Under the pieces are notes generated by a model, which saw nothing but the letters and a program-made list of their open reading frames with translations, was not told where the DNA came from and searched no databases. DNA of 22,327 bases from Pinguiococcus pyrenoidosus (Eukaryota; Sar; Pinguiophyceae; Pinguiochrysidales; Pinguiochrysidaceae). Positions 3,133-22,327 of this stretch are shown here, piece after piece. The stretch lies in NCBI GenBank assembly GCA_019677205.1, contig JAAMXY010001141.1:1-22327 (forward strand). The letters run 5' to 3'. The position numbers and the translations under genes were made by a program. Every line of letters begins with the position of its first letter. The stretch's first letter is position 1.

Positions 3133-5637
3133 TTAGATCTTGTCACGTTGCGGACTCTTCCCGCCATCGGATGCTCCTGCACTCTTCTTTGAGCGGCTGA
3201 AGCCGAAGACCACAGCGCCGACCACCAGAGCCGCCGCAGCTACGGCACCAACGATGACGCCTGCAAGGACACCTTCGCCGAGACCGTCGTCGGACCCATC
3301 CCCGGAATCATCATCGGGATCTCCACCACCATCACCACCCCGGAATGCACAAGGACAGTCCGTGCACGACTCGTCGAAGACCTGGCCGTCGCTTCCGTCG
3401 GCGATGAGAGACGTGTTCGTAGGACTCTGTAAAGCAGTCAGGTTAAAGCAGAGGATCTGATCGAAGGCGTCGGCGTTGACAAACATGTTGGTCATGTCGG
3501 TCACGCTGCTAGTGTCCCAGGCGCTGACGTCCTGATTGAATGCGGAGGCGCTGTCGAACATTCCAGTCATCAAGGTGACGCTGCTGGTGTCCCAGGCGCT
3601 GATGTCCTGGTTGAAAGCCCTGGCCTGTCTGAACATGTACCGCATGTCCACGACTTTGCTGGTGTCCCAGGCGCTGATGTCTTGGTTGAAGGCGTCCGAG
3701 CGATCAAACGTGCGAAACATATACTTGACATTGCTGGTATCCCAAGCGCCGATGTCCTGGTTGAACGCGTCAGCATCGGTAAACGTCCATGTCATCTCGA
3801 TGACGTTGCTGGTGTCCCAGCCGCTGATGTCCTGGTTGAAGGCGCCGGCTTGGAAGAACACATTGTTCATGTACAAGACGCTGCTGGTGTTCCATGCGCC
3901 AATGTCTCCGTTGAAGGAGCCGGCTTGGTAGAACATCTCGCTCATGTCGACGACGCTACTGGTGTCCCAGGACGTGAGGTTCTGGTTGAAGGATCCGGCT
4001 TGGGAGAATATGGAGCTCATCGCTGTGACGCTGCTGGTGTCCCATGCGCGAATGTCTCCGTTGAAGGCGGCGGCACCTTGGAACATGCGCCTCATATCTG
4101 TGACGCTGCTGGTATCCCAGCCGCTGATGTCTCCATTGAAGGAACTCGCGCGAATGAACATCGCGCTCATATCAAAGACGCTACTGGTATCCCATGCGGT
4201 GAGGTTCTGGTTGAACGCAGTCGCATCAGAGAACATGGATCGCATGCTGGTGACACTGCTGGTATCCCAGCCGCTGATGTCTTGGTTGAAGGCGACCGCC
4301 ACAGCGAACATTCTCTCCATATTGGTAGCACTGCTGGTGTCCCAAGCGCCGATATCGCCATTGAAAGCGCGAGCTTCACGGAAGGTGAAGTACATGTCGG
4401 TGACGCTGCTGGTATCCCAAGCGCCGAGGTCCTGATTGAAGGCGCCGGCAAACGCAAACATCTCGCGAATGTTCGTGACGCTGCTGGTATTCCAGCCGCT
4501 GATGTCCTGGTTGAAGGCCCTGGCATTGGAAAACATGAAAGCCATCGTGGTGACGCTGCTGGTGTCCCAGCCGCTGAGGTCTTGATTGAAGGCCTGTGCA
4601 CCGTCGAACATGTAGAGCATGGTAGTAACGCTGCCGGTGTCCCAGCCGCCGACGTCTCCGTTGAAGTTCTCTGCATTATTGAACATGTAGCTCATGTCCG
4701 TGACGCTGCTGGTGTCCCAGCCGCTGATGTCCTGGTTGAAGGCCCTGGCATTGAAAAACATTGAAGCCATCGTGGTGACACTGCTGGTGTCCCAGCCGCT
4801 GAGGTCTTGATTGAAGGCCCGAGCACCTCGGAACATCTGAGTCATGCTAACAACGCTGCCGGTGTCCCAGCCGCTGATGTCTTGGTTGAACGCCTCGGCG
4901 TCATAAAACATGTAGTTCATGTCGGTGACGCTGCTGGTATCCCAGGCACTGATGTTATCGTTAAAGGACCTCTCACGCTGGAAGAGGGTTTGCATGCTCG
5001 TAATACCACTCGTGTTCCACGTCGAAATGTGGCCGTAGCTTGCCTCGGCGGCAGCCCGATTGCTGATCCAGCTGCTCACAGCGGTGTAGATACTGTCCAC
5101 AGCGGGGTCGAAGACACCAGACGTCTGCAGGCGTCTCGAAGCTTGCGCTTGCTCGACAGCTGAGGGCTCGACAAGCTGCGCAGAGCAGCCTCCCAAGAAG
5201 TTCGCATCGAACGTGTACCTTGTGATGCCATGCTCATCGCTCTTCGCCACCTGCACCAGGAGAGCGTACTGGCCGACGGGGAGCGTCTGCGAGAAGGACG
5301 GCGACGAGCCGTCGGAGTCGCTCTCGACTCGAGCGCCGAGCTCGACATGATGCGGAGCGTGAGCTGTCGCATCTGCGGCGACGGAGTGGACGTGAAATGC
5401 CATGGGGTTCTCACGATCGGCTGCGCTGAACTCGACTCTCTGCGGCGTCGCCACCTCGAAGAGATGCACATCTTCTTCACCATACAAGACTTCATCTGGA
5501 TGCGTGCTACGCCCAAGTGCCATGCCCTGGTAGCTCCCGCCCGGACACTCGACCACGCCGGCGACTCTCCTCCGAGATCCCGGCGCTTGAGCGTACGTCC
5601 AACTGGCGAGGCCGGCGATCAGCAGGGTCTTCACCAT
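3133..5637 (-). CDS. BspA-like / DUF285-repeat surface protein, single-pass membrane anchored
   Basis: This is a predicted cell-surface or secreted-pathway protein of about 834 residues. I chose the ATG at 5637 because it gives a clean signal peptide ([18 protein letters not shown]); in-frame ATGs at 5685 and 5847 would bury it. Residues 203-727 are 21 tandem 25-residue units of the DUF285 (BspA-like leucine-rich) type, consensus [25 protein letters not shown]. A short Cys-rich segment follows (CTDCPC), then an Asp/Gly-rich acidic linker, one transmembrane helix (about 789-813) and a basic 21-residue tail. The N-terminal 200 residues are a separate, unassigned ectodomain. In other organisms this repeat family occurs in adhesins and antigens of bacteria, Mycoplasma, Trichomonas and Entamoeba, and widely in algae. 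The ligand is unknown. No intron is needed. Composition looks less GC-biased than in the neighbouring channel gene. Confidence 0.9.
3457..5031 (-). repeat. 75-bp coding tandem repeat array, 21 units (DUF285)
   Basis: Twenty-one units of exactly 75 bp each encode 25 residues with no indels. The WDTSSV core is nearly invariant (variants WNTSS, WDTGS, WDTSN, WDTSK). Neighbouring units differ mainly in the residues after MF and before FNQD. The strict length and in-frame periodicity keep several antisense frames open as an artefact. Confidence 0.95.
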
Positions 5638-5991
5638 GCCATTCAGAGACGCAGCCTGGTGGCTGCTTGAAGTACAAGTCTTCATCGGCTCTTGGAGCCC
5701 AAGTGCCTCTCTGCGCAGTCTGAGTGCTTGACCTCTGCGCCTGCAGAAGATCCGGCGCGCAAAGCAGATGCAGCTGTGACGGAACACGGTTGGGGAAGGC
5801 GACAGGCCGGTCAACAGACTTCTTGATGCTGCTTGATGAAGGAGCAAGAACTAAGCGGGCTAATATACATAGGATGAGGCAAGGGGGATAAAGCACTCGG
5901 AGCTCGGAGACAAGTTTCGGTGCCATTTCCTGTGGCGATTGGATCATTTGGATGTATGCCGAGGCGATCCTTCGGGAGAAGCGCAGTGACT
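5638..5991. other. 5' flank of the DUF285 gene
   Basis: This should contain the promoter and 5' UTR of the minus-strand DUF285 gene. A TATA-like TGTATATTAG lies on the minus strand near 5860-5869, about 225 bp before the chosen ATG. Two in-frame upstream ATGs (5685, 5847) are present. No other gene is seen. Confidence 0.4.
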
Positions 5992-6707: not shown

Positions 6708-9700
6708 ATGGCGGAAGGTATGCCAAAGGCACGAAGCGCTTCTTCGAGGAGCGTGCTTCTCACGCACACCACCCACACCGCGCAGTGAAGCACGTGTGCA
6801 TCGGCGACCACATCACCATCCGCCTTCCTCTTGGTGATGAAGACGGCTTCTTCGGTACGACACAAACCACGACTACCGCCCACCCCAAAATGGAAGGTCG
6901 TAAGCCGAAAGCCTTGCTCTACGCGTCCCAGGCGCTGAGGGATTCCTGCAAACCGACATGCGTGTCATACCCGCGCCGGCCTTCCCGGAGGACTGCATCT
7001 TCCAGGTGTGCATCCAGCACAGCTACTCCGCGGCGGTGGAGCTGGAGGTAAAGCGCTGCCCCTTGGCTTGAGACCCTCCTGAGGATGCACATCCTGTCCG
7101 CTGACGCCGTGGAAACACAAAACCTCGTGCCCCGACACAGGAGTACCATGCGTCGCTGGCGGAAGAAGACGGCGGCGCTCAGATGCCGATGCCGGGCTTC
7201 CAACCGGAGGAAGAACCAGTGAAGGAGATGATGTCCGGCATCAGCTTCCAGGGGTCAACCACCTTCGGAGGCGCTCTGAAGCCTCGGCCGGATCTCGCCA
7301 GTCTCAAGAGTCGCGGGAGCACCAACAGCCTCTTCACCCAGAGCGCGGCATCGCTGGGCGTCAGCGCCGCTCCCGCTGAACAGAGCGTCGGCGACCTCGG
7401 CCTGGACGCCCTCCCGCCGGACACGGACGAGACCAAGAAGGAGGTCACCGCCAGGATGAAGGCGCGGCGGGAACAGGCGGAGAACGCCAGCTACCTGAAG
7501 AGCCTGGCTCGCAGTCGAGACAACGAGCACAAGCTCAACGAGATGTACATGGCGGCGCGGACCGGCCAAGTCGTCCGCTACGGAGACGTGCTTCAGCTGC
7601 GCCACGTGAAGACCAACAAGTTCCTCACCGCCTCCGTCAGCCGCGTTGCCGCTGTCGAGCGGGAGAACATGAGCGTCGTGCTCACGCCAGAGGGCTCCGC
7701 CCTGTCCTGGCTCACCGTGGTGCCCCGCTTCAAGGTGGTCCGCGACGGCGACGTCGTGAGCGACGCCTCCGAGGTCTTCTTCCGCATCACCGAGCGTGCC
7801 AACGAGTACCTGCGCTGCAGCGTGAAGACGTTGCCTCACTCGCCCGACTACGAGATCAACTGCTCCATGGACCGCACCGCCGCCAAGGTCTTCGTGTACA
7901 ACTCCTTCGACATCCTCACCGGAGACGTGCTCAAGGCCGGCGACGTCGTGACCATCATGGAGCCGGAGACCAAGTCCATGGTTCAACTCGCGAGAGACGA
8001 CCAGTTGGACGCCAGCGACGAGGACGCGGGCTCCGACGGTGGGTCTGGGTCCCAGCCCCAGTCCCAGTCCCAGCCCCAGTCCCAGCCCCAGTCCCAGTCC
8101 CAGTCCCAGTCCCAGCCCCAGCCCCAGTCCCAGCCCCAGTCCCAGCCAGCGCCGCAACTACTGCAACCTTTTCAAAGCGTCGTGCATCTAGTGTCCTACT
8201 CCAAGATGGACGCCTACGACACGAACGCCCTGTGGATCATCGAGCACAACGACGCCACCACGGGCGGCGCCATCCTGCCCAACGACGAGATGTACCGCCT
8301 GCGCCACGTGAACAAGTCGGAGTACATCGCTATGGTGCCCAAAGACCGCTGGACCCAGCCGCGCCGCACGTTCGACCTCGAGCGCACGGTGGCGCAAGCA
8401 GAGCAGGACGACGCGTCGCACACGCTCACGTCCACCTCGGAGAGACAGACCGGCCACGCCGCGGTCAGCATCCTCCCCATCAACGGCGCGCTGCAGAACG
8501 ACCTGGGCGACCAGATGCCCGTGTCCAACCGCGCCGCCGTGCAGCTCAGCATCGTCGGCCGCTACGTCGCTCGCGGGCATCGGACGCCGCTGGGCTCGGT
8601 GCTCCTCCAGGGCAGCGCCTCTTCTTCGCTGGCGCTCTCCTTCGTGCTCCAGTCCGTGCCGTCGAGCATCCGCTCGGAGGTGCAGATCGGATTGCTGGCG
8701 CGCCGCGCGCTGGAGCAGCTGCTGGACTTCTTGCGTCGCCATGGCACCAACAGAGCGTTGAAGAAAGAGCTGAGCAGTCTGCAGAGCCGCACGCACACGA
8801 TCCTGGGCCTGGTCGTCGACTTCCTGAGCGAGCAGACGGAGGCCCAGGAGTTTCGCCAGCGGATGATGCAGGAGCAGCTCATCATCAAGCTGCTTCTCGA
8901 TCTCATGGACCAGGACTTCAAGGCGCCGGGAATGCGCAGGGACGTCGTCGTTGGCATGCGAGAGCCGTCCTTCCAAGTCATCTACGCCGCGGCCTTCAAC
9001 CACCCGGCCAACCAGATGTACATCGCCGGCCGCCTCCCGGTGCTGGTGAAGCACGCGGGCGACGACTACAACGCCTGCGCCGCTCTCACCGAGATGCTGG
9101 GCAGCAACCAGCAGCTGCAGGAGACGAAGATTGAGGACGACGACGTCAAGATCTTCGTCGAGATGATGAAGGAGGCCTCCATGAACAGCCTGTACCTCAA
9201 CCTGCTTCGCAGCTTGTGCAGCTGCCGCGGCGCCGGCGTCGACGCCAACCAGTGCCGGGTGGCGGATCTCCTGCTGCGGGTCAACCCCCAAGTCATCCTC
9301 GCCGTGCAAGTCACCAAGGCCGGCGGAAAGCCCTTCTCCTTCGGCGGCCAAAGCCTGTACAAAGCGGAAGGCCGCTTCCTGGGAGAGACTCTACTAACGT
9401 CGGGCTGCCCGTGCATCGGCGTTTCGTGGAACTTCTCCAGCGACGGCCGTACGCTGAGCAGCAAGCGGACCTTCGGCGCCACCGCGGTGCCCATTGAGCG
9501 CATCTGCAGGGCCAGTCGTGCCCACGAAAGCGACACCGCCGTCCTGGGCGCCGACAGGTCCCCACAAGATAAGTCGCTCAGGAAAGGCACGAGCCTCAGC
9601 TTTGTCCCGAGTCCCACGGCGGGCAGCCGCCCGCGCAGCATGACCATCGCGAAGAACGACGCCGCGACGTCGCCGGACCACAGCGGCGAGAGGCGCAGGA

Positions 9701-12700
9701 AGCTTTCGGATTTCCTCGTCGCCCAGCTGCTGTTGTTCGCCGAGATGTGTTTGGACCGCAACTACGTCGCCATCAACCTCCTCAGCGCCACCTTCTCCTT
9801 CGAGGTGGTATTCAGCATCCTGGCGAATACGGCGCTCAACGAAGCCGTCCGAGCCGCCGCGGTGCGCCTGATGACTTGCATGTATGTGGACCGGAGTCCG
9901 CAGACGCGCGCGAAGGTGCCGAGGCTCACGAGGCTGTGGAGCGCCAGGGACGCAGACTTGATCGAGAGCACGACGCTGCATCAAAAGGCCTTCGTGGTGC
10001 TCCAGGTGCTCATCTCCAAGTACCTCCACGGCGACATCGACTTGGCGGGTCCCCTGTGCCGCAGCCTCGTGGAGCTGGTGCTGTACCTCATGCGCTTCCA
10101 ATGCTACCACTCGGTCGCTCAGATCCGCGACGTCGTCGATCCCATCACGAAGAACCTCGACCGGCGTCAGGACATGAAAGACGACGACCCCCTGGCCGCT
10201 GAGATGGACGCCTCGGAAGACGAGGCCGCAAGGCCCACGCCCAAGACGGCAGCTTCCGCGGTACCGCCGCAGCAGCGCAGCGGCTGGGAGAAGCGGACGC
10301 TGGATGTTCTCGAAGGGCTCTACGTCCTCGTCGCGGTCTTGGTAGTGGTGGTTGTCGCCATCATCGTTGTTCTGATCCAAGCCTTCGCCGGCGCCGAGGG
10401 CGCCGGCTACGAGGTGTTCGAGCTTAGCGTCGCGTCCGCATTCACGCTGGAGCTGGCGCTGCGCATGTACTGCTTCCGGCGCGTCCACGGCGAGATCCGC
10501 GCCTTCGTCAAGGACGCCATGTCGGCCGTGGACATCTTTGTGGTGCTGCTGGACTGGATCATCTTGGCGGTGGCGTTCGCCGGCGCCAGATCTCCGGGCT
10601 ACGGCGGCCTCGGCAAGAGCCTCCGTGGCGTGCGCCTCGTGCGCCTGGCGCGCATCCTGAAGACGGGGCGGCTCATCAAGAAGGTCTACGAGTTCGGGCC
10701 GGAAGAGCCGGTGGCCTACGTGCTGCCGCCCAGGTACTCCAGGACGTCAGAGATGCAGCTGGAGACCATGGTGCGCATGGTGGAGATTCTGGACCTCGTC
10801 ATGGACCTCCGCAGCGACGCGCACATCTCCGCCGCTCTGGCCGCCTTCAACGCCTGGCGCTCTAGGAGTAAAGCAGAGCCGGCCGCCAGCGTGCTGCGCC
10901 GCCACCTGGCGGCGGCGACCGACCTGGACATCGGCGACGGTTCCAACAGCACCGACGCCGTGCTGCTGGACCTGTGCATGTACGAAGATGGCAACCTGAC
11001 CCAGGCCGTGCTGGGCGTCCTTGTCAAGAAGCACTCCGGCGTCCACGAGCTGCTGAGCAACCAGCGTGAAGTGCAGGTGCTGGTCGACGCGGCTGCCGCC
11101 GAGATGTACCAGGACTTCCGCGCCAAGCTGCAGGTCCTCAACGAGCTGGCAGAGACGGAAGAGCTCTGGGGGAACCTGGAGACGCCCGCCGACCAAGAGA
11201 AGAATGCCGAGATCAAGCGCGTGCTGCAAGCGCTGTCCGACGCCTGTGTCGAGAAGGACCCAGAGGTCAACTTCCAGAGCGTCGTGCGGGGCCGCCGAGA
11301 CGTCCAGAACATGCTGCGCAACCTGGGCGCCGTCGACACCGTGGCCGCGGTGCTCCAGCTCAGCGCCGGCATCGACGATAAGACCACCGAGCCGCTGCGC
11401 CTCAACTTGGTGGACAACATCTTCCGCTGTGTCCGCTTCCTCTCCAACTTCGTCATGGACAACCCGGCCAACCAGGAGGTCGCCGGCTTCCTGGTGGACT
11501 TCCTCTTCGCGTCGCTGGACGAGAGCTTCGGCGCCGCCGACGCCATCCGCATGATCCACCAGGACAGCGCCGCGTTGATCCAGGTGCTGCCGGAGGGCAT
11601 CGTGCCGTTGCTGGTGGCCAAGCTGGAGAAGGCGCGGGAGAAGGAGAGCATCCTACGAGTGCTGCGGACGCTCACGCACGTCGGCGACGCCTACTTCGTC
11701 GAGGTGCAGTTCGAGATCGTGCGCGAGATCTCGTCGCCCATGCGGGCCGCAAGCGTCCTGAATCTCTGCCTCGAGGCCGCGCAAGTCGAGGAGCGAGACG
11801 CGCTCATGGCGGCCGCCCCTCCCACTCGCGAGAGCTTCATGGAGCTGGCCCCACCGCTGCGGTACCATGTGGAGTTGATGCGCACGCTGGCCAGCTGCGC
11901 CGTCGGCACCAAGGACGTCACGTTGGTGGAGGCGAAGCTGCAGAGCCTGCTGCCATACCAGACGCTGCTGGCCTGGATGCTGAGCGACGCCACCGTGGTG
12001 GAGGCCAAAGTGAGCTACATGCACTTCTTCCTCCACGCCTTCGTGGAGGTGGAGATCAGCTTGGACGACTTGCCCAACGACGCCGCCGTCTACCGGCTGA
12101 TCGACGCGGCCATCCAGGACGTCCGGCAGCTGACGGTCATCTTCCACCAGACCTGCACACAGAAGCGGCCGCTCACGTATCTGGAGCTGCGCCGCGCAGA
12201 GTATGTCCTGGTGGCAGTCCAGACGTTCACTCTCTTCTACGAGCACTTCTTTCGGGACAGGCCACTGTCTGGCGCCGCAGGGACGGAGGCGTTGCTGGCG
12301 CCAGCCGCACCCTCGACGCTCAGCGCTGGCGATCGGAGCCCGACGCCGAAGGTTGCGAAGCCGGCGGTGGAGGAACAGAAGCCCTACGCGCAGATGGCGC
12401 TGATGTACAGCGCTCTCCGCGCGCTGTACGTGAACCCATGGCCGCTGGAGTCGACGAAGTTGGACGATGCCCTGTACGACGCCATGGACCTGCTGCACAC
12501 GCTGGCGCGTACGCTGGTGCGCCTGGACCTTCCCGGGCGTCGCGTGTCCTTCACCATGAAGAGCCAGAGAATCGTCGACGACACAGAAGGCTCCGGCGTG
12601 GCGAACGACTTCGAGGCGTTCCGCTCCGCCTGCGCTGCCGATGCGGCACTCCAAGAGCTGGCGCAGCGAGGGCGCGTTGTGCACGTCATGCAGGCGATGC

Positions 12701-15700
12701 AGTCGCTGCCGTCAGAGAAGGACGTCGTCGATGCCGATTTACGCGTGGAGCCACTGCTGAGGAAGCTGGTTCTGCACGTGCGGGTGCGGATGACGACGAC
12801 CGACTCCAAGCGAACCCTGGACGACGCCTGCACGGCCACCACCATCTGGCTGGTGACGCTCTTCCGCACCATGATCGAGACGGCCTGGGGGATGTCCATC
12901 GACGACCGTGACGAGCTGGGTGGCGACGAGCAAGACGCCCGAGCGGACGCCATCCAGAAGACACTGAATCACACCGGTGTCACCGCATTGTGCATCGATC
13001 TCATCGCGCCGGGGATCGCGGACGACTTGGTACTCGAGAGCATCAAGCTTCTGGTGGCGCTGCTGTTCAGGGAAGGCGGTCACGTGGCCGTCCAGGAGAC
13101 CGTTCACGAGTGCCTCTCGAGCGACGCCAGCCGCCTCTTCTACGACGCCGTGCGCCACGAGGTGGACGCGATGGTGCAATGGCACGAGAGGATCCTGCGG
13201 GTCCAGGCCGACGCAGAAGCGCTGGAGCGCAAGAAGCTCAACATGCTCGACGATGCCAGCGACAGCGGCGACACCTTCGATCTGCTGGGGTCTGCGGCGA
13301 AGCCTGGGGGAAGAAAGAGCTTCTTAGCCGAGCTCAGCAGCTCGCGGATGCTGTCGGCCGTGATGGGAAGCCGCCACGCCGCCGTCACGCCGGACGAGAG
13401 GCCCCCGATCGGCGCTTGGGAAAGCCTCGACGAAGGTGCCGCTGGACGAGACCATCGTCAACGCGCCGGAGATTCGACTGAAGGACAGGGTCGCAAAGCT
13501 GAGAACGACGGCAAATGGGACGAGGCCGACGTCGAAGTGCCGCCGAAGCTGCTTCTCGTGCGCTTCTTGCAGCTCTGCTGCGAAGGTCACTTCCTCCGCA
13601 ACCAGAATATCTTCCGGGAACAGGGCCGCACGCTGAGCGTCAATCTGCTGGAGAGCCTGCTCAAGTACCTCAAGTTCCTGTCGCGCAACCCTAGCCGCGC
13701 GTCGACGCACGCGGCGCAGGCCGTGGCCGATACGGTGCTGGAGGTCATCCAAGGTCCTTGCAGGGGCAACCAAGTCTACTTCGCCACCAACTCGGAGCTC
13801 ATCGAGATCTTGAATCGCCTCTTGCGCGCCAAGGTGGTGCGCGACTGCGTGGAAGACGAGGAGACGGCACTGAAGAAGACCGCACTCGAAATCTTCGAGG
13901 CGCTGCTGGAGGGCCAGACGCCGGACAGTGAGATCTACGAGAGGATCCTCAACGTCATCCATCTCGACACGCTCCAGGCGCTGGTGCTGAGACCCGTGAT
14001 GATGGAGGACGCGTCCGACGAGGCCGAGGGCCTGCAGATCGAGTCGCTCGTGCTCATGCAGATGCTCTTCGACGCCAAGCCCGCCGTTGCCGAAGAGGTG
14101 CAGCTGCCGCCCAGCGTGCAGCACATGATGGGCAACGAGGTCCGCAGCGTCGAGGTGGTGTGGAACGGCACGCTGCAGCGGCGCTTCTTCCCGCTCCCGC
14201 GCGAGATGCAGGACCTGTCCGAGGCGTCCAAGAACGCGCTCGTGCAGGAGATCGACCGGTCCAACCAGGAGAACAAGCTGCTGGACTTCGTCCGCCGCAG
14301 CCGCGATCTCTTCCGTGAGATCATGCATCAGCAGTACCTCAAGGAGCGCGGCGTCGCCGTGCTGTTCAGCCGGCAGAACCAGGACCGGGCGACGTGGATC
14401 GCCTTCTTCCTCAACATCATCATCAACCTGTGCATCATGGCGTCGTACGAGTACGACAGCAAGATGGACACCCGGCCCAGTGGCGACGCCAGCGTGGACA
14501 TCTTCGTCACGCTGCTCAACATCCTGCAGATCTGCTGCTCCTGCTTCGTGTACATCTTGTTCCTGGTGGTGCGCGTCCCCGTGCTCTACGCGGCCAACCG
14601 CGCCGGCGGCCTCAGCCCGTACGTCGCCTTCGTGTACACGGCCGGCGACGGCTTCACGCTGTACTACTTCGGCTACTGCATGATCGCCATCCTGGGCATT
14701 CTGGCCGAGGAGGGGCCCATCTTCAACAGCGTCTTGCTCATGGACATCATCGTGAAGGACACCACCACCAGAGACGTGATCTACGCCGTGCTGTATCCCC
14801 TCCGCCAGCTGTCCATGACGCTGCTGCTCACGCTGATGGTGATCTACATCTTCGCGGTGAACATCTTCTTCGACTTCCGCGACGACTTCACCGAGGGCTC
14901 CGGCGAGGACGACTGCGACACGCTGCGCGGCTGCTTCCTGACCACCATCGGCTACGGCATGCGGCTCTCCGGCGGCATCGGCGACAACATGGAGCACAAC
15001 ATCAGCGACCGCTGGCTGCTGGACATTGCGTACTTCTTCATCGTGCTCATCATCCTGCTCAACATCGTGTTCGGCATCATCATCGACACCTTCAGCGAGC
15101 TGCGCGCGAAGAAGCAGGAGCGCGACAAGGACACGCACGAGGTGTGCTTCATCTGCGGCCTGGAGAAGGTGGTGTTCGACCGCTCGTCCGCGGACGCCAC
15201 CTCCGGCTTCCGGCGCCACCACCAGCAGGACCACAACATGTGGAACTACATGGGCTTCATCACGTTCCTGTGGCTGCAGGACAAGGACGACGACGACGGC
15301 CTGGAGCAGTACGTGCGCGACTGCATCGACGCCGGCGACATCTCCTGGTTCCCGCTGGGCAAGGCGCTGTGCCTCGAGGCGCAGAGCGAGGAGCAGGAGG
15401 AGGCGCAGCGCGCTCTGGACAAGCGCCTCGACGAGCTCGAGGCGCTCACGAAGGGCCTGGCGGACACGCACCGCAAGCTGGTCGAGAAGCACGCCGCCAA
15501 GATGGAGAACCTGCTGGAGACCATGCTGCGCCGAGGCCGCCCGCCGCAGCGTCCAGGCCGCATCTCCATGCCGGACATGTCGGAGGTGCTGCACAACTTC
15601 CAGATGCCGTCTCCGCCCGCGGACGCCGAGGTGTGGGACTCCACCACCGTGCTGGTGCGGCGCGCGGACAAGCTGGTGCCGCCGCACCTGCTGGGCAACT

Positions 15701-16089
15701 CGGACCCCTTCCTCAACGTGCAGGCCTTCCTGGGCTCTCACAAGCTGGGCCAGACGGAGAACGTCTGGATGCTGCAGGGCGTGGAGTGGCCGGAGCGCGG
15801 GTCCAACACCATCGTGGTGCGCGAGAGCGATCTGCAAGCGGCGCCAGCCGACAGCGCTCTGCGCTTTGAAGTGCACCACCACACGCACCGCGGCCGAGGC
15901 TTCTTCCTGGGCGCCGTCGTTCTGGCGCTGGACCGCCTCCCCAAGATGGGCCCTCACGACGTGGACTTTCCCCTGCAGAAGCTGAGCAACATGGAGGGAA
16001 GCCAACAGACGATGGTGCAAGGACGCTTGACACTGCGATTCCGCCACAAATTCCGCCGCCGCTCGGCCGCTCAGTCCTTCGCCACATGA
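6708..16089 (+). CDS. IP3-receptor/ryanodine-receptor-like Ca2+-release channel with inserted voltage-sensor domain and C-terminal C2-like domain
   Basis: Proposed join 6708-6717, 6786-6854, 6932-7047, 7141-16089: introns of 68, 77 and 93 nt, all GT-AG, restoring one frame of 3,047 residues. The first exons supply the family N-terminus (MAEVKHVCIGDH..., then FPEDCIFQVC, compare FRDCLFKVC in animal IP3 receptors). Order by residue: N-terminal domain and MIR repeats (1-570) interrupted by a Gln-rich repeat (369-401); RIH domain (about 575-785); a conserved segment with LFAEMCLDRNYVAI (about 920-1076); four-helix voltage sensor (1121-1246); second RIH-type helical region (1260-1700); channel segments (2481-2720) with pore GGIGDN at 2676-2681; C2H2 linker finger (C2734, C2737, H2758, H2763) and NMWNYMGF; coiled coil (2815-2866); C2-like domain (2894-3035). 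The likely role is a tetrameric Ca2+ channel of an internal membrane. IP3-contact residues are mostly replaced, so IP3 gating is doubtful. Membrane, gating and function are inferred. Confidence 0.93.
8051..8146 (+). repeat. 6-bp coding repeat (CCCAGC/CCCAGT)x16, Ser/Pro-Gln tract
   Basis: There are sixteen in-frame hexamers giving alternating Gln with Ser or Pro at residues 369-401 of the channel. The tract sits inside a MIR repeat, where animal IP3 receptors carry the loop with the RTTxR-type IP3-contact residues. The NALW that closes that loop is present just downstream (near 8225-8236). Confidence 0.9.
10306..10698 (+). other. Voltage-sensor domain (S1-S4) within the channel CDS
   Basis: S1 is the Val-rich helix at 10318-10380. 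S2 carries F1166-T-L-E1169 and R1173, the F-x2-E charge-transfer pattern of voltage-gated channels. S3 carries D1196 (AVDIFVV) and D1203. S4 has basic residues at every third position: R1227, R1230, R1233, R1236, K1239, R1242, K1245. No pore helices follow, so it is a sensor module like those of Hv1 or voltage-sensing phosphatases in extent. It falls where animal IP3 receptors have a variable linker before the conserved EILxFILxVRxDxRIS motif (here EILDLVMDLRSDAHIS). Confidence 0.92.
15625..16056 (+). other. C2-like domain at the channel C-terminus
   Basis: The segment begins TTVLVRRADKLV, continues with LGNSDPFLNVQAFLG and ends with LRFEVHHHTHRGRGFFLGAVVL and two further strands. This follows the C2 pattern (hydrophobic strand, A-x-L, SDPF, strand, FLG). 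The loop that usually supplies Asp residues for Ca2+ (VxDxD) reads EVHHHTH, so Ca2+ binding is probably weak or lost. It follows the coiled coil where animal IP3 receptors end. Confidence 0.7.
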
Positions 16090-18789: not shown

Positions 18790-19296
18790 CTAGGAACGGG
18801 GCTTCTCCTTCTTCTCTTTGTAGAGCGCCAGCAGCGAAACCCCCGCGACCTTGACCACCTTGAAGCGCACTCCCGGGATATCTCCTACGGCGTGTCCAGA
18901 GCGCCCGAACCCCGACACCAGCACCTCGTCGTTCTCATCCACATAGTTGAGGCAGCCGTCATTGGGCACGAAGCACGCGATCTTCTTGGCGTTCTTGATC
19001 AGCTGCACCCGCACGCATTTCCGGATAGCGGAGTTGGGCTGCTTGGCCTCAATGCCCATCTTCTCTACCACGATGCCCTTGGCCATGGAGCTGCCTCCCA
19101 GGGGGTTGGCCTGCGCACCCAGATCCATCGTTACCCCGGCAACGAGGAGGAAAAACATGCAGAGCTGAGCGGAACAGACCTTCATCGCAGTGATACTGTG
19201 TGCCTTCACATAGCGCTTGGAAGCCCACTGCTCCTCGCGCCGCAGGTTGCGCAGCTTGCGTCCGGCGCGGATGCCACTAGGCTTTCCCTTACCCAT
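18790..19296 (-). CDS. RPS23: 40S ribosomal protein uS12 (RPS23)
   Basis: This is a small-subunit ribosomal protein of the decoding centre, where it contacts the codon-anticodon helix and controls accuracy. The gene is join(18790-19110, 19180-19296) on the minus strand, 145 residues, against 143 in human. The start MGKGKPSG matches the family. Highly conserved blocks are [18 protein letters not shown] (with P64, the prolyl-hydroxylation site position in other eukaryotes), [38 protein letters not shown] and the C-terminal KPRS. The 69-nt GT-AG intron after AMK has no stop and is a multiple of three, so unspliced RNA would stay in frame. Family alignment shows it is an intron: ...AMK joins ANPLGGSS. 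The gene is divergent from the DOT1-like gene. Confidence 0.97.
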
Positions 19297-19761
19297 GGTG
19301 CTCTGAGGAAGGCAGCAAAGAGGGTTTCGGTGGCGTTCGCACTTCAGCCTCTCAATGGCAATTGGGAAAGAGCTGAACGGGATCCAGTAGGAGACATCGG
19401 CATTTTTAAAGAATAGATATGTTTTATCGGCGACGCAGGATTGGATGCCGCTCCCGTGCCGCCGCAGGAGAGACCATGGATTGGGAGATGGGCAGAGCGG
19501 GAGACTACTATTTTGGAGTATTATACCACCATCCAAAGATCTAAATCCTCTAAGCCAATAAAGACTATCCATGACGTCATGATTATTTCAATCGACCGTT
19601 GCTGTTCCGACAGATCCACATATCAGCTGACACCCGTTCTCCTTCTGCGCTCTCCTTTCCCCCCTCTCTTCTGCCGCAGATCTTTTCCTTCCGCCGCACC
19701 ACACCGCGCCACTTGTCCAGCCAGGCTCTCGTTTTCCGGTTTGACATCGTTTTGAAGAGCC
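19297..19761. promoter_or_regulatory. Divergent promoter region between RPS23 and the DOT1-like gene
   Basis: This 465-bp gap separates two start codons on opposite strands, so it should contain both promoters. It is more AT-rich than the flanks (for example 19390-19440 and 19500-19590). It contains the perfect palindrome ATGACGTCAT at 19571-19580, a CRE/bZIP-type site, and pyrimidine-rich DNA (19640-19690) before the plus-strand gene. No TATA box is certain. Confidence 0.55.
19571..19580. promoter_or_regulatory. CRE-type palindrome ATGACGTCAT
   Basis: This is a full TGACGTCA core extended to a 10-bp palindrome in the shared upstream region of RPS23 and the DOT1-like gene. The factor is unknown; bZIP proteins bind this sequence in other eukaryotes. 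Confidence 0.5.
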
Positions 19762-21212
19762 ATGATTCAGCCTCGCGGAGAGCGCGCCAAGGCCATGCTT
19801 CAGAGCCCGTCCAAGCGGCGTCGCCACACCCCCCGACGCACGCCGAGAGAGCCTCCTCCGGAGACGCCGGAGGCCATTCGTCGCGGCTCCGAGGAGAACG
19901 AGGCGCCCAACACCCCTGAAGGGGCCGTGAAGCCCCAGGAGCTGTTTCCCAAGGCGGCCTTGATTGAGGAGGCGCCAGATACGCCGGGCGCGGTGGTCGA
20001 ACGCCGCCCGACGTCGAGGTCTAGTGGCGTGAAGGCAAAGTTGGAAGTGGAGCCGAGCGCCGACAAGGTGGACAAGAAGGCCCTGGAGATGGACAAGAAG
20101 AAGGAAAAGGTCCGCCAAAGCTACAAGGTGCTGCGCAAGGCCACGGGAGCTCTGGGAGGCAACGCCGACGGCGGAGCCATCTACGGAGAGATCACCGAGG
20201 GCAGCATGGCCCGCATCGTGACCGCGCTGGAGCAGTACTGCGGCTTCTCCTCGCGCTCCACCTTCATTGATGTCGGCTCCGGCCTGGGCAAGCCAAACGT
20301 GCACGTCGCGCAGTATCCGGGAGTGGTGTGCAGCTATGGCATCGAGCTGGAGGATATTCGGTACGCTCCTTGTTCCGACACCGCAGAGACGCGTGATTGC
20401 TTAGGAAGCGTTTGCAATGGCCACCGCCCCCACGTACCTCCCTTTTCCTCCACCTAACCCTTACGTCATGCCCGCGCTGCACAGGTACAAGCTTGCAATG
20501 ATCAACCTGGATGCGCTCCTCAAGCAGGAAAGCCTGCAGCGCAGCGTCTTCTTCTCCAAGGGAGACATCGCCATGGCGGAGAGCTTCGCGGGCTTCACAC
20601 ATGTCTACATGTATGACCTTGGCTTCCCGCCGGAGACGCGAGAGCATATCTCGAAGATGTGGTCCGACTCGGGGCCGCACACCAAGTACGCTAGCCGTGG
20701 AGACCCTCCAGCTTGCCCTCGTGGGCTGCACCGCCTCACGACTGAAGCGTCTTCTCCCTTCTGCAGATATCTGGTGTCCTACATCAGACCCAGCGTGCTG
20801 ATAGAGCAGTATGACATGGAGATCGAGGAGCTCGTCGACGAAGATGGGGAGCCTCTCCGCATCCCAACGTCCATGCACGGTGAGCGGTTGGTGGACCATC
20901 ATCATCTTGGTTGCGTTGAGGCTTCTCCTTTCAGCAGGTCGAAGCTGACGCGTTTCCCCCTTAGGCTCCGCCGAAGGTCACACTGCGTACTTCTACAAAC
21001 GATCTCCTCCGATGACGACGGATGACGAGTTCCCAGCCGACGCGTCCGAGATTGCGAGCATGGTGGACCCGGTTTTCAAGCAAGGCTTTGAGCTTGTGGG
21101 CGGGCCCGTGGAGGACCTGCAAGCGCACACGACCGCCGTCGTCGCGGACTACCTGACGGAGACCAGGAAGACCAGGTCCCGCACCGGACGCAGGAAGGTT
21201 CGAAATGACTAG
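19762..21212 (+). CDS. DOT1-like histone-lysine methyltransferase domain protein
   Basis: Proposed join 19762-20360, 20485-20685, 20767-20879, 20965-21212: three GT-AG introns of 124, 81 and 85 nt and a 386-residue product. It is predicted to be a nuclear SAM-dependent methyltransferase of the DOT1 class (histone H3K79 type). The N-terminal 115 residues are basic and rich in Thr-Pro/Ser-Pro, with a KRRRH nuclear-localisation-like cluster. The catalytic fold begins near residue 120. Motif I is FIDVGSGLGKPN (168-179), motif II GIELEDIR (193-200, E195), and an acidic SKGDIA (D227) follows. The place of the DOT1 NNFAF motif reads MYDLGFPPE, so the usual paired Asn is not kept and the substrate could differ. 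The C-terminus is acidic, then basic (TRKTRSRTGRRK). Splice choice is fixed by frame; the alternative acceptor at 20937 gives an early stop. Confidence 0.88.
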
Positions 21213-21402: not shown

Positions 21403-21882
21403 TCAGAGCGGCACTAAGCGCTCGGGATCGTCTAGCCAGTCTAAGTTCTGCAGCTGCCCATCGGCGGTTGCTTTCATCTTTACAGCCTGCAGGGGCACGC
21501 CCACGTTCAGCATCTTGAAATAGGTCACACAGGCGGGATGTGTGCGCGCCGGAACCATGCCATCTTCCTTCACGGGCCCTTCGTCTTCCGGAGTCTCTTC
21601 GGCATTCGCCGGCGTTTCCGCCGGTGCTTCAGCGGAAGTCGCCGGCTCTTCGGCTACTGCGGGGGCGACTACAACACTAGAGCTCTGTGCGATGCTCACG
21701 ATCGACGGAGAGCGCAACTTCGCCTCCAGCACCTGCAAAAGCGTCTCCAGACGAGTGACTTTCGCGCTCACTTTCGCCAGGCGCTCGTCGCACTGCAGCG
21801 CAAAGCTATTGAGGAACGCAGTGGTCTGCAGAATGAAGTGATTGACCAGCAGCGCCGAATGAGGCGCCGGCGCGCCCGCCAT
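21403..21882 (-). CDS. WASHC3: WASH complex subunit 3 (CCDC53 family)
   Basis: This 159-residue protein matches the CCDC53/WASHC3 family at both ends. Near the N-terminus is the helix VNHFILQTTAFLNSFALQCD followed by the coiled coil RLETLLQVLEAKL (human: VQFLNRFSTVCEEKL, IETTLNILDAKL). After an Ala/Glu/Pro-rich linker comes YFKMLNVGVPLQAVKMKATADG (human YLKMVQVGVP). In the WASH complex this subunit joins the core assembly that activates Arp2/3 on endosomes. The start ATG at 21882 gives MAGAPAPHS; the frame stays open upstream to 22101 but that part is not family-like. The C-terminal acidic tail of the animal protein is shortened. No intron. Its 3' end faces the DOT1-like gene 190 bp away. Confidence 0.88.
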   Translation of the reverse strand: MAGAPAPHSALLVNHFILQTTAFLNSFALQCDERLAKVSAKVTRLETLLQVLEAKLRSPSIVSIAQSSSVVVAPAVAEEPATSAEAPAETPANAEETPEDEGPVKEDGMVPARTHPACVTYFKMLNVGVPLQAVKMKATADGQLQNLDWLDDPERLVPL

Positions 21883-22327
21883 TGGCCTCAAAACGCAGCG
21901 TAGGACACAGATTTTGGCGCCAAAATCCTGGGCATTTTCGTGGATTTCGTCAAAACAAGAAAAGGAATGGGACAGACGACGGGACTGTGACAGAGGGAGC
22001 GAAAAAAGACGGTGACGGACGGAGACCAGGCTCGCGGTGACAGAATCCAAATCCGAAGGGCCCAAAACCCAAAACACGAAACACGAAAGATAGGAAGGCA
22101 TTCAAATGATCATCTGCGCCACAAAGCGCCTTGTGGACGAGCGATGCCGTCTGAAGTGGCCATGTGGCTCCAACTAACTTCAGAATGGCGTGAGAGACCT
22201 GCGTGAGCTGCGCAATGCCGCCGCTTGGCGCTTGCGACGCTGTAGCAAAGCCGAAGAGGCGATCAGCTGATGCGCCAAAGACGCTTCCGCGCGTCCAAAA
22301 GGCCACAAACCGCCGCTGCTCTGGAGA
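21883..22327. other. 5' flank of WASHC3
   Basis: No second gene is recognised before the window ends. It carries the palindrome at 21911-21926 and a reverse-oriented TGCGCCAAA at 22271-22279. A CCCAAAA/ACACGAAA direct-repeat run lies at about 22061-22088. Confidence 0.45.
21911..21926. promoter_or_regulatory. 16-bp perfect palindrome ATTTTGGCGCCAAAAT (E2F-like)
   Basis: This is a perfect 16-bp palindrome 29 bp upstream of the WASHC3 start codon. Its core TTTGGCGCCAAA fits the E2F/DP consensus of plants and animals. It may be a core-promoter element. Confidence 0.6.

Follow-up and report, generated by a model that had tools for sequence, protein, structure and literature searches.

In animals, the inositol trisphosphate (IP3) receptors (ITPR1-3) are the closest described relatives of the protein reported here. 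In skeletal muscle, a further member of the same superfamily, the ryanodine receptor (RyR), is coupled to Cav1.1, and a voltage sensor thereby controls an intracellular Ca2+-release channel; the sensor is there a separate plasma-membrane protein. Voltage-sensor domains (VSDs, segments S1-S4) joined to other kinds of effector are exemplified by Ci-VSP, in which an N-terminal VSD is attached to a cytosolic enzyme, and by the sperm Na+/H+ exchanger SLC9C1, where the VSD lies within a membrane protein of another family, a transporter and not a Ca2+-release channel. Two-pore channels are voltage-sensor-bearing channels of endomembranes; they have the classical fold, with the VSD beside the pore, and no RIH or MIR domains. 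We analyzed a 22,327-nt stretch of DNA from Pinguiococcus pyrenoidosus (contig JAAMXY010001141.1; the whole stretch is termed the window) that encodes a 2968-amino-acid, IP3R-type protein with a predicted VSD inside the release channel itself. The window protein resembles the animal receptors in domain order, in the Ca2+-activation motif of ARM3, in the zinc-finger juxtamembrane motif and in a GGxGD-type filter. It differs from them in carrying the VSD where they have the wedge loop, and in its IP3 contacts, none of the five alignable residues being identical.

The gene is a single open frame of 2968 codons with no internal stops (Table 1), as the first-pass annotation of the window had claimed when it described one uninterrupted frame containing MIR, RIH and the IP3R pore. 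Pfam matches follow the order Ins145_P3_rec, MIR, RIH, RIH_assoc and C-terminal Ion_trans, which places the protein in the IP3R/RyR superfamily. Among solved structures its best match is IP3R1 (E 5e-107), with similarity across several stretches. Matches to RyR are confined to one stretch, the pore (best E 4.7e-34), and no SPRY domain is found among the Pfam matches. On these sequence features the protein is classed as IP3R-type rather than RyR-type.

Residues ~1040-1170 constitute, as judged from sequence, a complete S1-S4 VSD. The segment 10216-10740 aligns to positions 5-113 of the 241 positions of the Pfam Ion_trans profile, its S1-S4 half (E 7.4e-10), a positive outcome for the search with voltage-sensor models that had been proposed as a check. 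The nearest solved sequence is the VSD of a voltage-sensor phosphatase, that of Ci-VSP (E 0.0046), although the window VSD stands in the middle of its protein. The sequence marks of a voltage sensor, namely an aromatic and an acidic residue in S2, an Asp in S3 and at least four Lys or Arg residues at every third position of S4, are all present (F1087, E1090, D1117 and eight charges). The nucleotide coordinates given for the domain by the first-pass annotation are correct; its residue numbers were each 79 too high. It had also counted seven basic residues in S4. That run exists, and has eight members when K1145 is included, making it the longest every-third-position K/R run with hydrophobic spacers in the ORF. 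When the ORF was shuffled 1000 times, the longest run was 2 in 576 cases, 3 in 404, 4 in 19 and 5 in a single case, and none was longer. Four hydrophobic helices had likewise been described. A hydropathy scan (19-residue window, cut-off 1.3) gave peaks at S1 and S3 but none at S2 or S4, so that the evidence for the latter two helices comes from profile and alignments. The third-position GC content of the VSD (0.897) does not differ from that of the whole ORF (0.898). The VSD does not directly precede an S5-P-S6 pore of its own: S4 is followed by helices of the central linker domain, and only the S1-S4 half of Ion_trans is matched. That half-profile match and the IP3R character of both flanks rule out a piece of a Cav channel complete with pore. 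Ten membrane segments per subunit are predicted.

Three protein similarity searches returned at least 139 distinct database clusters, which together with the window protein were treated as a set of 140 IP3R-like proteins. The last of these searches contributed the best 120 of 129 matches, and all counts below cover the proteins that were scored. The queries carried the VSD, so the proportion of same-site carriers (91/140) is no measure of prevalence. A family profile built from 12 VSDs, including that of the window, recognized a VSD in 92 of the 140 proteins, which bears on the earlier suggestion that MIR, RIH and a voltage sensor be sought in one protein of other protists. In 91 it occupies the same site as in the window protein and in one, P0011, it lies elsewhere; 48 proteins are without it. 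A simple motif sufficed to place 86 of the 91 same-site VSDs, and P0055, P0068, P0074, P0091 and P0119 were placed by their flanking sequence. An alignment-profile search found at least four proteins, all of them already in the set. The 48 proteins without a VSD comprise 26 animal proteins, P0012, P0013 and 20 further relatives; that none of the 26 animal proteins examined carries a VSD agrees with the earlier statement that animal receptors lack an S4-type sensor. Two of the 92 carriers bear a species name, P0063 from Ochromonadaceae sp. CCMP2298, an ochrophyte, and P0011 from the bolidophyte Triparma laevis. The S4 of P0063 is degraded, and the protein is public as a hypothetical protein. 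Two other VSD-bearing receptors, P0008 and P0009, also list EF-hands (in P0009 at residues 824-879, between RIH and the VSD); a joint Ca2+ and voltage input is possible in these proteins.

All 13 VSDs that were scanned singly match Pfam Ion_trans at E <= 0.01. Across the 91 same-site VSDs the S2 aromatic is Phe in 90 and Tyr in one, the S2 acid is Glu in 68 and Asp in 23, and position 1094 is Arg in 85 and Lys in six. The S3 residues D1117 and D1124 are found in 91 and 81, respectively. Within S4, R1148 is kept in 89, R1151 in 86, R1154 in 82 and R1157 in 81; positions 1160 and 1163 are basic in 86/91 and 85/91, whereas few have a basic residue at position 1166. Of the 91, 81 possess every element of the signature: the aromatic, the acid, the base, the Asp and four S4 charges. 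By comparison, the median VSD column has its commonest residue at a frequency of 0.40; eight sensor residues, together with R1184 of the connector, make up the nine columns of highest conservation in the insert. Selection on voltage sensing would produce such a pattern, which exceeds what an inert anchor would need.

The insertion falls within the central linker domain. Residues 839-924 align with IP3R1 727-812, and the remainder of the upstream flank was assigned by the family alignment. The stretch that follows S4 matches IP3R1 up to residue 1004, weakly when taken alone, and is backed by the family alignment, which includes fish IP3R2. With 90 database clusters sharing the site, this alignment also upholds the earlier claim that the insertion lies in a linker variable in animals and leaves both flanks preserved. 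The linker before S1 is long and variable, at 40-158 residues in the 61 of 91 VSD proteins measurable by pattern. The spacing from R1163 to R1184 is 17-23 residues in 86 of the 91 as measured, and ends at a conserved P-x-R-Y, after which the next central-linker helix begins. The sensor thus appears tied tightly at its S4 side and loosely at its S1 side. According to PMC10613215, the loop Pro897-Glu958 in the central linker domain of human IP3R3 is a "wedge loop" that holds Ser934, a PKA site; in the resting state part of it occupies a cavity bordered by ARM1, ARM2, ARM3 and the linker domain. The loop, when present, stabilizes the extended, resting position of ARM2; in receptors that are pre-activated or activated, ARM2 is retracted. 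We mapped the insertion to this loop through helix order and IP3R1 numbering rather than by aligning it residue by residue with human IP3R3. If the mapping is right, the VSD would stand at the site of the described allosteric switch.

A FastTree tree of 45 selected proteins, from which the VSDs had been excised, contains some very long branches and several low supports. In this tree the same-site carriers group in a single clade (support 0.966), within which the VSD-less proteins P0012, the group P0070, P0083, P0092 and P0096, and the pair P0108 and P0111 are nested. The simple reading would be one old gain of the VSD followed by losses. P0011, from T. laevis f. longispina, falls outside the main carrier clade. 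Its VSD spans residues 2111-2261, matches the family profile at E 1.9e-26 and has an S4 with a K/R run of seven; on a coarse alignment it precedes the start of ARM3, at fish IP3R2 ~1577-1612. This is near the linker leaving ARM2, given as human IP3R3 1556-1587 in PMC10613215. Because this VSD lies both at another place and outside the main clade, a separate acquisition in the Triparma line is probable. Both sites border ARM2 on the coarse alignment. Among the channel loci fetched from the Pinguiococcus genome, the highest score of the family profile outside the window gene was 46.5 bits, on contig C669, a match too weak to name a donor of the VSD. A viral origin was rejected after one scan of viral contigs gave no relative.

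The IP3-contact residues of human IP3R3 are R266, R270, R503, K507, R510, R568 and K569 (PMC10613215). At positions 503, 507, 510, 568 and 569 the window protein has E, R, Q, P and A, of which only the change of K507 to Arg is conservative; the loop bearing R266 and R270 could not be aligned. In 18 of the 91 VSD proteins, compared by eye from the alignments, R568 and K569 are never both present and one of them occurs in three (P0001, P0002 and P0009), and R510 is kept in 12, R503 in four and K507 in four. The canonical IP3-coordinating residues are thus lacking in the window protein and standard IP3 binding is doubtful; IP3 may be bound in some other way. The activating Ca2+ residues E1882, E1946 and Q1949 of human IP3R3 correspond by motif match to E2134, E2187 and Q2190. 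In fish IP3R2 the two motifs are 64 residues apart, which equals the E1882-E1946 spacing in the numbering of PMC10613215. Among the 85 VSD proteins longer than 1900 residues, [CS]EGH is found in 78 and ExxQGP[CS] in 80, and Ca2+ co-activation has probably been kept.

We consider it probable that the window protein is an IP3R-type Ca2+-release channel, one of an old family, that acquired a VSD at the wedge-loop position, and that voltage would control release through the action of S4 on the wedge-loop/ARM2 switch. The VSD would lie in a membrane with both its ends cytosolic. A change in voltage would move S4, which would pull by way of the short P-x-R-Y connector, nearly fixed in length, on the central-linker helix that stands in place of the animal wedge loop; this pull would move ARM2 between the extended position of the resting state and the retracted position of the pre-activated state. 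The position of ARM2 would in turn set the readiness of the ARM3/juxtamembrane gate, and the pore would open with cytosolic Ca2+ as co-activator. Voltage would then replace, or join, the priming role known for IP3 in animals. The VSD may share the membrane of the pore or may reach another membrane across a junction. We infer voltage control of Ca2+ release, as we do the membrane and the fold. Two observations strengthen the case for voltage control: sensor residues make up eight of the nine top conserved insert columns, and the insertion site is a loop with a described regulatory role (PMC10613215). Multi-domain frames of the voltage-gated channel type in the same genome (contigs C716 and C411) make an excitable membrane plausible.

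Several points weigh against voltage-controlled release. Membranes of the endoplasmic reticulum (ER) are generally thought to hold little standing voltage. Twenty close relatives have no VSD at the site that the family profile can recognize, 15 of them having a plain loop there; in the alignments of P0083, P0085 and P0087 no gap could accommodate a VSD, and the aligned sequences of P0108 and P0111 run through the site and show no voltage-sensor S4. The channel backbone can therefore do without the domain. Part of the signature is missing in ten of the 91 carriers (P0063, P0065, P0072, P0074, P0077, P0078, P0081, P0086, P0115 and P0123). Nor do poor IP3 contacts prove insensitivity to IP3, since section 3.6 of PMC9694693 describes poorly conserved trypanosome receptors as IP3-activated, and since the Pinguiococcus genome encodes a PI-PLC. 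The same section reports poor conservation of these contacts in oomycete receptors as well; PMC3194816 cites the opposite on IP3 in trypanosomes. Finally, the zinc-finger motif was located in 53 VSD proteins; a pattern search recovered a filter of the GGxGD/GGxxD type in 34 of them and none in the other 19, and pores may thus differ within the VSD family. Apart from these points, P0070, P0074, P0083, P0108, P0111, P0115 and others, which have a plain loop, a degraded S4 or no recognizable S4 at the site, form a graded natural series of sensor loss.

The VSD might be only a membrane anchor or a vestigial module, fixing the cytosolic cap to a membrane without gating by voltage. In favor of this, its loss is tolerated in close relatives with fewer than five of the eight S4 charges (P0063, P0065, P0077, P0086, P0115 and P0123) or with no recognizable VSD. 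Yet hydrophobic helices alone would serve as an anchor, whereas the gating-charge and charge-transfer residues are kept in 81/91 and are among the most conserved columns, and we regard this explanation as unlikely. It is very improbable that the VSD itself conducts, by a proton or gating-pore pathway as in Hv1, thereby linking the receptor to an ion flux. Proton conduction by stand-alone VSDs does occur, but the features that we take to be marks of Hv1, RxWRxxR in S4 and an acidic S1 residue, are rare or absent: RxWRxxR occurs in none of the 91 VSDs, the window's included, and an acidic residue of the S1 core in seven, with none in the core of the window protein (1049-1064). A proton-channel reading is disfavored by these counts. 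An artefact of gene fusion, assembly or splicing, such that the VSD would be missing from the mature protein, can be considered negligible in view of the same insertion in 90 database clusters, the grouping of its carriers in one clade and the identical codon pattern of the VSD and the rest of the frame; an intron, a junction of two genes or a chimera as the origin is ruled out by the continuous frame together with those clusters.

The VSD might also lie in the plasma membrane with the pore in the ER, one polypeptide bridging the junction. A VSD has both ends cytosolic, so either topology is allowed. The long linker on its N-terminal side would permit such a span, and P0001, P0004 and P0120 list a C2 domain, a lipid-binding module (28.9 bits in P0120, above the cut-off of 22). 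The putative C2 domain in the tail of the window protein falls under that cut-off and would fit membrane tethering, short of proving it. The post-S4 connector is short, however, and we give the bridging arrangement a slim chance. A broader proposal is speculative, with odds well short of even: that excitation is coupled to Ca2+ release within a single polypeptide, the VSD in the plasma membrane, or another polarized one, reading the action potential, and depolarization directly opening the pore in the store by means of the wedge-loop/ARM2 switch, with neither Cav influx nor IP3 needed. Protists would then have invented, probably twice (in the main clade and in Triparma), a one-protein counterpart of what takes muscle two proteins.

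Table 1. Features of the gene for the VSD-bearing channel, with nucleotide positions in the window
Feature	Position	Strand	Basis and remarks
Whole gene, 2968-aa VSD-bearing IP3R/RyR-superfamily channel	7183..16089	+	single open frame, Pfam, IP3R1 match
Ins145_P3_rec region, aa 92-242	7456..7908	+	Pfam PF08709, E 1.7e-17
MIR domain, aa 335-409	8185..8409	+	Pfam PF02815, E 2.3e-8
RIH (RYDR_ITPR) domain, aa 552-706; aligned IP3-contact residues non-identical here	8836..9300	+	Pfam PF01365, E 1.6e-21
Central-linker-domain flank upstream of insertion, aa 840-990 (MCLDRNYVAI ... NLDRR)	9700..10152	+	IP3R1 alignment and family alignment
Linker before S1, aa ~996-1039	10168..10299	+	family alignment
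Predicted voltage-sensor domain S1-S4, aa ~1040-1170	10300..10692	+	Pfam Ion_trans S1-S4 half, E 7.4e-10 and 5.7e-10 (two scans); family profile
S1, aa ~1047-1066, top hydropathy peak of ORF	10321..10380	+	hydropathy scan; approximate boundaries
S2, aa ~1077-1098, with F1087, E1090, R1094	10411..10476	+	approximate boundaries; no hydropathy peak >1.3
S3, aa ~1113-1134, with D1117 (91/91 in family) and D1124 (81/91)	10519..10584	+	approximate boundaries
S4, aa ~1145-1168, with K1145, R1148, R1151, R1154, R1157, K1160, R1163, K1166	10615..10686	+	K/R run scan, family alignment
Post-S4 connector, aa 1167-1185, ending P-x-R-Y	10681..10737	+	family alignment
Central-linker-domain helix after insertion, aa 1189-1215 (MQLETMVRMVEILDLVMDLRSDAHI..)	10747..10827	+	IP3R1 stretch ending 1004; family alignment
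RIH_assoc (ARM3 region), aa 2125-2214, with E2134, E2187, Q2190	13555..13824	+	Pfam PF08454, E 5.3e-17
C-terminal pore domain, Ion_trans, aa 2407-2644; GGIGD filter motif in translation	14401..15114	+	Pfam
Possible C2 domain, C-terminal tail, aa 2822-2926	15646..15960	+	19.8 bits, under cut-off 22

We also searched the Pinguiococcus genome itself (23.7 Mb in 768 contigs). Related pores were found at three other loci, C5, C635 and C359. No VSD-like S4 run of five charges was seen in the frames examined there; those of C635 and C359 are incomplete, and an exon could be missed. A four-charge stretch at residue 132 of the C635 frame fits a looser pattern. The VSD is thus not seen to be common to all the IP3R-like genes of P. 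pyrenoidosus. The frame at C359:27866-32290, on the minus strand, is 23% identical to the window protein in the pore region and has no visible VSD. The genome holds 81 Ion_trans matches, several of them per frame on C716 and C411, and 29 matches to the light-harvesting family PF00504, some of which are exon pieces. Three LOV stretches presumably resemble aureochromes; no bZIP was found in the same frame. Together with the light-harvesting matches, these stretches point to a photosynthetic protist, probably a stramenopile.

The remaining ORFs of the window have varied predicted functions. On the minus strand, a 904-aa frame (3133-5847) consists mostly of DUF285 repeats (E 1e-207), a frame at 18790-19572 encodes ribosomal protein S12/S23, with ~150 residues ahead of the domain in the same open frame that are possibly non-coding, and a frame at 21403-22101 encodes CCDC53, a subunit of the WASH complex. 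The plus-strand frame at 19762-20457 contains the start of a DOT1-like domain (E 5e-7, profile positions 21-77 of 205), the remainder of which was not found in the neighboring frame 20417-21025.

In the literature searched, a limited collection of papers that included work on IP3R structures and on ER voltage, we found no account of an IP3 receptor that contains a voltage sensor; the accessible parts of PMC9694693, PMC7016017, PMC3194816, PMC11085791, PMC10613215 and PMC8930994 make no mention of one. If the interpretation is correct, intracellular Ca2+ release would be under the direct control of voltage, in one protein, in a group of protists. This would represent a new architecture for the IP3R/RyR superfamily and an independent solution to the coupling of excitation to Ca2+ release. 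It would also provide a natural experiment on wedge-loop/ARM2 gating of IP3 receptors, since a single family includes relatives whose sensors are intact, degraded or absent. Two questions would become directly testable: how large a voltage stands across these membranes, and what substitutes for IP3 in receptors that lack the IP3 contacts.

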